In this document: positions 2,889-22,723 of the stretch, one piece after another | Layout: each line of letters opens with the position of its first letter | How positions within the stretch are numbered: position 1 is the first letter of the stretch | From: an uncultured Alphaproteobacteria bacterium | Lineage (GTDB): Bacteria; Pseudomonadota; Alphaproteobacteria; HIMB59; GCA-002718135 | DNA: 37,422 bases | Reading direction: 5' to 3' | Assembly (NCBI GenBank): GCA_902619045.1 | Contig: CACNCX010000006.1 | Coordinates: 1-37,422, forward strand | Made by a program: the position numbers and the translations under genes | The notes under the pieces: generated by a model | Told to the model about the DNA's origin: nothing | What the model saw: only the letters and a program-made list of their open reading frames with translations | The model's database searches: none

Positions 2889-3880
2889 TATCCACCTGTT
2901 ACGTTCATATGTCTTTTCATATATTTATTAATTTTTTCTCCAATCATAAAATCATGTTGTTTTGGTTTAATATTAAGAGCAAACTTAATTTTTTCTTTTA
3001 TATAATCATCACTATAATCTTTTCTCATTATTTCTCTAAAATCAACAAAGTCATTCTGACCAAGGCACATGAAAAGTTTACCAGTGCTCGATATTCTTAC
3101 TCTATTGCAAGAGGCACAAAAATTATTTGTTAAAGGACTTATAAACCCAATTTTATTAGAAACTAAATCACTAGTATAAAATCTTGCTGGACCTCCAGTA
3201 TTATAATCAATTTTAGAAAATTTATATATTTTGTCTAGTTTTGAAAAAGTATCAGATAATGAGATAAACTGATATTCTCTTGATATATCTGTTTCTTCCA
3301 TTGGCATTACTTCGATAAATGTAAGATCAATTTTTTTATTACTAGTCCAATTTATTAATTCTTCAATTTCATTTTCATTAAAATCTTTAATTACTACAGT
3401 ATTAATTTTAATTTTTATGTTGTTATCGAGTGCTTCATTAATTCCATCAAAAACTTTTTCAATATTTCCAAATCTTGTTATTTTATTATATTTTTCAGGA
3501 TTAATTGTATCTAAAGAAACATTAATTCTATTAATACCATTTAGCTTCAGTAGTTTGGCATATTTTTTTAATAATGTGCCATTTGTTGTCAGTGTTATTT
3601 CCTTTAGATTTGTTTTTTCTTTTTTGGTATTAAGTTTTTCAATTAATTTTATAATATCATTTCTTACCAAAGGCTCACCCCCAGTTAATCTAATTTTTTC
3701 AACTCCGAGTTCTATAAAGTTGTCACATAATCTTTCAATTTCTTCTAAAGTGAGTATGTCTTTTCGTGGGAGAAATTGCATTTTTTCTTTCATACAATAA
3801 ACACATCTCAGATCACATCTATCTGTAACAGATACTCTTAGATAATTTACTTTTCTTAAATACTGATCAATTAGTTGCAT
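2888..3880 (-). CDS. moaA: GTP 3',8-cyclase (radical SAM)
   Basis: LRVSVTDRCDLRCVYC (CxxxCxxC), RLTGGEPLVR, C-terminal cluster motif CASCNRVRISSTGKLFMCL, terminal GG. Confidence 0.96.
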   Translation of the reverse strand: MQLIDQYLRKVNYLRVSVTDRCDLRCVYCMKEKMQFLPRKDILTLEEIERLCDNFIELGVEKIRLTGGEPLVRNDIIKLIEKLNTKKEKTNLKEITLTTNGTLLKKYAKLLKLNGINRINVSLDTINPEKYNKITRFGNIEKVFDGINEALDNNIKIKINTVVIKDFNENEIEELINWTSNKKIDLTFIEVMPMEETDISREYQFISLSDTFSKLDKIYKFSKIDYNTGGPARFYTSDLVSNKIGFISPLTNNFCASCNRVRISSTGKLFMCLGQNDFVDFREIMRKDYSDDYIKEKIKFALNIKPKQHDFMIGEKINKYMKRHMNVTGG

Positions 3881-4073: not shown

Positions 4074-4508
4074 TTAACTAATTCTTTTTTCTGCTTTTTC
4101 ATGCATTTCTTGAGCTTCTAAACTCAATGTTGCAACTGGTCTTGCTTCTAATCTTTTGATACTAATTGGATCACCTGTTTCATCACAATAACCATAAGAT
4201 CCATCTTCAATTCTTTGTAGGGCGGCATCTATTTTATTGATCAGTTTTCTTTCTCTGTCTCTTGTTCTGAGTTCGAATGATCTATCTATTTCTTCAGATG
4301 CTCTATCAGTTATATCGGGTTTTGCTTCGTTTTCATTCTGAAGATTAGTTAGAGTCTGAGATGATTCCTTAAGTAAATCATTTTTCCAACTCACTAATTT
4401 TTGCCTAAAATATTCTTTCATTTTGGCATTCATGAATTTTTCTTTCTGAGTTGGTTTATAATTTTTAGGTAATTTAGTCATAATTTTAAAAAGTTGCTGA
4501 TTTATCAA
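4074..4508 (-). CDS. dksA: RNA polymerase-binding transcription factor DksA
   Basis: DRASEEIDRSFELRTRDRERKLINKIDAALQRIEDGSYGYCDETGDPISIKRLEARPVATLSLEAQEMHEK is the alphaproteobacterial DksA pattern. Confidence 0.93.
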   Translation of the reverse strand: MINQQLFKIMTKLPKNYKPTQKEKFMNAKMKEYFRQKLVSWKNDLLKESSQTLTNLQNENEAKPDITDRASEEIDRSFELRTRDRERKLINKIDAALQRIEDGSYGYCDETGDPISIKRLEARPVATLSLEAQEMHEKAEKRIS

Positions 4509-4595: not shown

Positions 4596-4610
4596 GAACA
4601 AAAATAGAAC
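4596..4610. promoter_or_regulatory. Candidate SOS/LexA operator, GAAC-N7-GAAC
   Basis: gaac aaaaata gaac, 86 bp upstream of the recA start. Its reverse complement is GTTC-N7-GTTC, the direct-repeat LexA box known in alphaproteobacteria. Confidence 0.6.
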
Positions 4611-4621
4611 TTTTAAAAATA

Positions 4622-4636
4622 GAACAAAACGTGTAC
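4622..4636. promoter_or_regulatory. Second candidate SOS/LexA operator, GAAC-N7-GTAC (one base off the direct repeat)
   Basis: gaac aaaacgt gtac, 60 bp upstream of the recA start, with the same 11-nt half-site spacing. Confidence 0.55.
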
Positions 4637-4695
4637 AAGTAAACATGATTTGCAAGAATCTTAATAAAAACATAGGAAATTAATGGAGAAATTAA

Positions 4696-5808
4696 ATGTC
4701 TCAAGCTAAATTAAAAGTAGTAAATAACGAAAATTCAATGGATAAAGAAAACAGAAGTAAATCTCTAGAAGCCGCTGTAAGTCTAATAGAGAAAAATTAT
4801 GGAAAAGGCTCAATAATGAAATTGGGCTCTAAAACAAACGTAGATATTGAAGCAATATCTACCGGTTCATTAGGGCTGGATATAGCACTTGGTATTGGAG
4901 GAGTTCCAAAGGGGAGAATTATTGAAATTTATGGACCTGAAAGTTCTGGTAAAACTACTTTAGCTACTCATATTGTTGCAGAGTCACAAAAACAAGGCGG
5001 CAATTGCGCATTTATAGATGCAGAGCATGCTCTAGATCCAGCATATGCAAAGAAATTAGGTGTAAATTTAGAAGAATTATTAATTTCCCAGCCTGATACA
5101 GGAGAACAGGGTTTAGAAATTGCTGATTCTTTAATTAAATCTGGAGGTATTGATGTGCTAATTATTGATTCAGTTGCAGCACTTGTACCAAGAGCTGAAT
5201 TAGAAGGCGATATGGGAGATTCTTTACCTGGTTTGCAAGCTAGATTGATGAGTCAGGCTTTAAGAAAACTTACAAGTTCAATTGCTCAATCAAACACTCT
5301 AGTTGTATTCATAAATCAACTTAGAATGAAAATTGGTGTTATGTTTGGTAGTCCTGAAACAACTACAGGGGGTAATGCTTTAAAATTTTATTCTTCTGTT
5401 AGAATGGACATTAGAAGAATTGGAGCAATTAAAGATAAAGATGAAATAATTGGAAATCAAACTAGAGTTAAAATAGTTAAAAATAAAGTCGCGCCTCCAT
5501 TCAAAGTTGTTGAATTTGATATAATGTACGGAGAGGGGATATCTAAATTAGGTGAATTAGTTGATTTAGGTGTCAAAGCAGAAATTATTGATAAATCAGG
5601 ATCATGGTTTGCATATAAAAATACTAAAATAGGACAAGGTAGAGAAAACGTTAAAAATTTTCTTAACGACAATCCTACTATAGCTAAAGAAATAGAAAAT
5701 CAAATTCTACAAAATGCTGGAATAGTTGAAAAAGCTATGATGGAAGGAAAAGTAGAGAATAAAGAAAAAGAAAAAGAAGCTAAAGAAACTGAAGAAATAA
5801 AAGAATAG
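4696..5808 (+). CDS. recA: Recombinase RecA
   Basis: [83 protein letters not shown]. Confidence 0.99.
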
Positions 5809-21501: not shown

Positions 21502-22723
21502 AATATCGTTATATCTATCTTTCATATTTATTTTTTCATGTCAGGATACGATTTCATCATTAAGAAATAATGAAAATATAGTTTCTGAAGATTATACCTT
21601 TCAATTAGAAACAGAAGAATTTTTAGATTTTAGTTTTTTTGAACAGTACGCAGATAACATAATTGATAATTATACACATAACGCATCTGACTATAATTTT
21701 ATAGATAAAGATTTAGCTGTATTAAAAATTAATAACTATCAATCAAAATATAACAATATGGAGCCGATAAATGTTATATACCTCGATGAGAGTATTTACT
21801 CATTCAATAAAGATGGGGAACTTCTAAAGTTTGATATTAATAATGGAAAGTTAATTGAAAGAATTAATATTGATTTAGATCAAGAAAAAAAAGTACCTAT
21901 ATCTTTTTCTCTTTATAATAATGATTTTATTATAGCTTTTAAATCAGGAGAATTAGTTAGGATTAACAAGTCAGGACAAGTTATTTGGATATTTAAAAAT
22001 AAAGATTTGTTAAATACTCCAGTCAAAATAATTGATGACTATTTAATAATATTATATCCAGAAAAAATAGTTTTTTTATCAATTTTAAGTGGAGATATAA
22101 TTTATGAGAAAACTTTTAAATCAAGTAATATAATTCAATCTTCAGGAGGTAAGATTGTAAATTATTTTAATATCATTTTCTTTATACTACCTAATAGTGA
22201 ATTTAATTCATTAGACACATATTTATTCGAGGAGCATAGTTTCAATTTTGACAATATTGAACTTAATACTTCACTTAATAATCTTAAGGATCAAATACAT
22301 CTTTACAAAAATTTTCTAGTTTATTTTGATGATGGAAATATTATTCATACTTATGACATAAATGAAAACAAGTTTATATTAGTTGATTTTAGAATAAATA
22401 ACTCGTCTTCAGCTGTTTTATTTAACAATTCACTAATTTCTAAAAATGATAATTTTGTTGAATTTTATAATATTCAGAATGGAAATTTATTCTCAAAAAT
22501 TAATATTAACAAAATACTGAATAAAAAATCAAAAATAATAAACTCTTTAATCATAAATAAAAATATGCATTTATTTACTGACAATGGTGAAATAATTATT
22601 TTAGATCAAAATCTTGAAATTCAAGAAACGGTTAATCTTAAAATTAAAAATATTAATAAAGTTTATAATTATCAAAATAAAATTTTTATAAGTACTGAAA
22701 AAGGTATTACTTACATTTATTAA
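21479..22723 (+). CDS. BamB-like outer-membrane assembly lipoprotein (PQQ/beta-propeller repeats)
   Basis: Signal with FIFSC lipobox-like site, repeated propeller blades (ESIYSFNKDGELLKFDINNGKLIERI, LVRINKSGQVIWIFKNKDLLNTPV), and position upstream of der. Confidence 0.7.
   Translation: MSFSFINKISLYLSFIFIFSCQDTISSLRNNENIVSEDYTFQLETEEFLDFSFFEQYADNIIDNYTHNASDYNFIDKDLAVLKINNYQSKYNNMEPINVIYLDESIYSFNKDGELLKFDINNGKLIERINIDLDQEKKVPISFSLYNNDFIIAFKSGELVRINKSGQVIWIFKNKDLLNTPVKIIDDYLIILYPEKIVFLSILSGDIIYEKTFKSSNIIQSSGGKIVNYFNIIFFILPNSEFNSLDTYLFEEHSFNFDNIELNTSLNNLKDQIHLYKNFLVYFDDGNIIHTYDINENKFILVDFRINNSSSAVLFNNSLISKNDNFVEFYNIQNGNLFSKININKILNKKSKIINSLIINKNMHLFTDNGEIIILDQNLEIQETVNLKIKNINKVYNYQNKIFISTEKGITYIY

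Follow-up and report, generated by a model that had tools for sequence, protein, structure and literature searches.

The 41 bp at positions 4596–4636 of the window, which is the whole stretch of 37,422 nucleotides analyzed here from an uncultured alphaproteobacterium of the HIMB59 lineage, raise the question of whether recA is under SOS control in a streamlined, uncultured ocean lineage and, if so, which other genes share that control. The initial annotation described three GAAC half-sites and one GTAC in this element, and a direct read confirms them (GAAC at 4596–4599, 4607–4610, and 4622–4625; GTAC at 4633–4636). They form two repeats, GAAC-AAAAATA-GAAC (4596–4610) and GAAC-AAAACGT-GTAC (4622–4636), which lie 60–100 bp before recA with a distal-to-proximal offset of 26 bp, that of the recA element of the genus. 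The features of the region are as follows.

4074..4481, − strand: dksA, divergent neighbor bounding the intergenic region (TIGR02420, 150 bits)
4596..4610, + strand: distal predicted LexA operator GAACAAAAATAGAAC, GAAC-N7-GAAC, ending 85 bp upstream of the recA ATG
4622..4636, + strand: proximal predicted LexA operator GAACAAAACGTGTAC, GAACAAA-N4-GTAC, ending 59 bp upstream of the recA ATG
4644..4649, + strand: tentative −10 element CATGAT
4685–4688, + strand: recA ribosome-binding site GGAG
4696..5808, + strand: recA, the predicted controlled gene (370 aa; ATG at 4696; TIGR02012, 561 bits)

The start of dksA is probably the ATG at about 4481, with TTG 4508 as the alternative, and no separate role for dksA in the 41 bp element was identified. 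The −10 element is proposed from its position and its conservation in the genus and at some SAR11 loci; a simple sigma-70 consensus scan detected no promoter on the recA strand. Were CATGAT the −10 element, the −35 element would lie at 4621–4626 and overlap the proximal operator.

The motif alone is not rare, since the single GAACN7GAAC in the 37 kb window compares with 0.37 expected from shuffles. Genome-wide, GAACN7GAAC counts do not exceed those of a reversed-pattern control; the excess over background that the initial annotation had proposed to test is missing, the boxes being found at specific promoters only, and genome-wide enrichment was dropped as evidence. Within the 187 bp dksA–recA gap, a single GAACN7GAAC occurred in 0.075% and two GAACN7GWAC in 0.0005% of 200,000 dinucleotide shuffles, and both boxes together in none (0/200,000). 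The significance of the recA boxes stems from their position, not from the frequency of the motif.

When the recA upstream regions of relatives are aligned, both boxes are retained: GAACAAAAATAGAAC-N11-GAAC-N7-GTAC is present in all 51 intact recA promoters of the genus (44 distinct sequences), two further loci that fail to match being cut by contig ends and not counted as intact. The distal box is identical in sequence across these 51 promoters and the spacing between the boxes is fixed, while the bases directly 5′ of the third GAAC vary. The recA promoters of the sister family (f2) retain no clear box, and none was found at its lexA or mraZ. At f2 umuD, GAACAAAATATGAAC overlaps the start codon, and GAACAAA[AG]TATGAAC is found there in 7/7 loci (L386–L392); f2 lexA encodes a protein of 192–198 aa directly after moaC- and moeA-like genes.

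The proximal box can be followed far beyond the genus. Among 80 alphaproteobacterial recA loci (L277–L356), GAACN7GTAC lies within 300 bp upstream of recA in 61, from many orders, and the reversed control pattern in none (0/80). Most of these matches take the form GAACAAA-N4-GTACA, SAR11 recA loci carry GAACAAAATGTGTAC, and the distance to the recA start in the sample is mostly about −54 to −135. Conservation at the 61 loci is sharply bounded, comprising two 4-mers at an 11-nt pitch plus AAA, with diverged flanks. A GAACN7GAAC, GTTCN7GTTC, or GTTCN7GATC site occurs at 46 of the 80 loci and is combined with GAACN7GTAC at 31; in other orders, the offset from one site to the other is most often 18 or 68 bp, vs. 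26 bp in the genus of the window. The initial annotation gave the coordinates and sequence of the second box correctly as one base off the motif. The box is nonetheless not a weak or degenerate copy, because GAACN7GTAC occurs in 61/80 alphaproteobacterial recA regions; by sequence comparison, it is a class-wide recA operator form with its own consensus. The proposal that one operator had been duplicated, made from the two occurrences of AAAAATAGAAC (4600–4610 and 4615–4625 by direct read), is not supported in view of this class-wide consensus and of the variable bases before the third GAAC: the AAAAATAGAAC/AAAAATA repeat is not conserved and therefore provides no evidence for duplication.

The search for lexA suggested by the initial annotation gave a divided result. 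No LexA was detected in the 974 kb assembly to which the window belongs, but this assembly is 53.6% complete, and the absence was therefore dropped as a refutation of SOS control. A LexA DNA-binding domain match is present in 89 of the 121 genomes searched, among them all 14 relatives that are at least 90% complete; part of these matches are weak and probably represent other proteins. The LexA of congeners scores 178 bits against TIGR00498 (cut-off 111), and has LexA_DNA_bind and Peptidase_S24 domains; inspection by eye shows an Ala-Gly cleavage site together with the Ser and Lys residues that a LexA capable of self-cleavage should have. In the organism of the window, lexA presumably lies in the part of the genome that the assembly lacks. 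In two genomes, lexA follows apparent trp genes and moaC (assigned by eye), in a gap of about 70 bp. One contig (G034:C13) bears two lexA copies in opposite orientation (3458–3643 and 22332–22517), probably an amplification or assembly artifact.

Similar boxes are found at a short list of other genes. In congeners, the lexA start is preceded, a few bases away, by GAACATATATAGAAC, or in one case GAACGTATATAGAAC; the pattern is GAAC[AG]TATATAGAAC in 23 distinct contexts, in 14 of which GTTCTTGTTTTGATC adjoins the box. In the window's own genome, GAACAAAAGTAGAAC lies 63 bp upstream of umuD-umuC and is conserved in the genus. This umuD box stands midway between umuD and a divergent gene, with 63 bp on each side (L011:577–715, G000 contig C14), and the divergent gene, which resembles an alanyl-tRNA editing protein, might share its control. 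An nrdA-like gene with an ATP-cone domain has GAACAAATTAAGAAC 98 bp upstream in the same genome, and relatives keep both half-sites with variation in part of the spacer. In congeners, GAACATACAAAGAAC or a similar sequence lies about 61 bp upstream of mraZ, adjoining an array of CCCAT repeats similar to MraZ boxes; several members of a divergent subclade have a degraded second half-site. At congener loci L178–L207, this box lies between the CCCAT array and the end of what by eye resembles an RNase P RNA gene. The lack of mraZ in the window's own assembly is consistent with incompleteness. The spacer preference of the boxes is A/T-rich, about AGAACAWAWNWAGAACA.

G069 (near-complete), G022, and G053 each contain six exact matches to AGAACAWANNNAGAAC. 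By coordinates and sequence, five are the lexA, recA, umuD, mraZ, and nrdA boxes, and the sixth, read out for G069, lies inside an mnmE-like coding sequence. The conservation of AGAACAAAATAAGAAC, which lies in a reading frame of 428 aa that by eye resembles MnmE, was attributed to coding and not counted. The expectation that other SOS genes carry the motif thus holds for lexA (in congeners) and umuDC (also in the window's own genome), but not for uvrA or ssb: in a matrix scan, the best matches at these two genes reach at most 8.5 bits, lie about 210–240 bp upstream, and apparently fall inside a neighboring reading frame, and both were ruled out as regulon members for want of a box. In the window's genome, uvrA is split into two overlapping frames (G000:C5:16996–19739), probably by a sequencing or amplification frameshift. 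The predicted LexA regulon of the clade is therefore small and excludes uvrA and ssb, on the basis of pattern searches, rather than a matrix scan, for genome-wide targets, by which weak members may have been missed. The chances are about even that the reach of LexA has shrunk to about five operons (lexA, recA, umuDC, nrdA, and mraZ, possibly with the division/cell-wall cluster), leaving excision repair and ssb outside and placing dNTP supply and cell division under direct SOS control.

Taken together, these data suggest that the 41 bp element is a tandem LexA operator of recA, which would be SOS-controlled (probability about 0.93). In favor are the conservation of both recA boxes, the like boxes at lexA and umuDC, and the cleavage-competent LexA sequence of relatives, and the view in the initial annotation that SOS-like operators precede recA is supported by the retention of both boxes in relatives and by lexA in the genus. 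Against are the failure to find LexA in the 53.6% complete assembly, genome-wide counts not above control, the lower score of the proximal box, and the lack of clear boxes at f2 recA. Two of these points could also be explained if the half-sites were chance products of AT-rich DNA or relics without a regulator, since GAACN7GAAC is not enriched genome-wide and the partial assembly has no lexA; such an origin is extremely improbable, as it is contradicted by the 0/200,000 shuffles, by strict conservation in the genus, by lexA in complete relatives, and by the box at lexA and umuDC.

A more serious alternative is that the distal box alone serves as a LexA operator and that the proximal GAACAAA-N4-GTAC is a recA core promoter element, or an element for another factor, resembling an operator by chance. 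The deviating GTAC half-site would agree with this, as would the matrix score of 12.7 vs. 21–26 for other sites (the matrix being built from those other sites) and the overlap with the probable −35 region. An operator fits better, in that what is conserved at 61/80 loci is a pair of 4-mers at the LexA pitch plus AAA, at start distances that are spread; moreover, nrdA in two divergent members has GAACAAAACATGAAC, one base from the recA form GAACAAAACATGTAC. We consider this alternative unlikely. Less likely still is a partial role for LexA as an activator of recA besides that of repressor, as has reportedly been seen in a Rhodobacter species. In its favor, the two operators are differently placed, the distal one upstream of the probable promoter, whose position is itself deduced; against it, the proximal box overlaps that promoter.

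Under the preferred reading, a tandem operator for repression, LexA dimers in an undamaged cell would sit on both the distal (4596–4610) and the proximal (4622–4636) repeats. With the proximal box at the probable −35 region, LexA bound there would cover this region and so keep RNA polymerase off recA. Upon DNA damage, RecA filaments on single-stranded DNA would trigger self-cleavage of LexA, and recA, lexA, umuDC, nrdA, and mraZ would be switched on.

The recA element itself would represent ordinary, classical SOS control of a known kind. The initial annotation had considered an SOS-controlled recA to be worthy of note in a streamlined genome; such control is normal in the class and shows signs in SAR11 too, and is thus not surprising here. 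Novelty may lie in the composition of the regulon, where the predicted control of mraZ and nrdA by LexA and the lack of a box at uvrA and ssb are modest extras. In the literature on the clade, we found no binding or expression data and no paper treating SOS or lexA. The findings matter in two ways: a working-looking SOS circuit, with a short list of predicted targets, is retained in an uncultured ocean lineage with a streamlined genome, and the widespread GAACAAA-N4-GTAC could serve as a simple marker for SOS control of recA across Alphaproteobacteria, including SAR11.

The closest counterpart of the proximal site is the recA SOS box of Rhodopseudomonas palustris, reportedly described by Dumay in 1999 as GAACN7G(T/A)AC. 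The proximal site has the same form and is likewise met upstream of recA, but here a distal GAACN7GAAC accompanies it, 26 bp upstream. As the initial annotation recognized, that distal repeat is the published alphaproteobacterial LexA motif GTTCN7GTTC/GAACN7GAAC (PMC3091678), also described in Caulobacter (PMC12700426). The half-site, the 7-nt spacer, and the direct repeat are the same in both, and the motif is likewise placed at lexA, recA, and the operon of a translesion polymerase; unlike the core regulon cited in PMC3091678, which includes uvrA and ssb, the clade has no box at these two genes, and its spacer is A/T-rich. A LexA site before mraZ is shared with gut metagenomes, where it was confirmed by gel shift with Bacillus subtilis LexA (PMC3998124). 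Because the site here is an alphaproteobacterial direct repeat beside a CCCAT array and differs from that bound by B. subtilis LexA, the two mraZ links are probably independent. In phage-infected SAR11, recA, lexA, umuD, and umuC rise together (PMC12753301), which supports a comparable circuit in another marine group with streamlined genomes.
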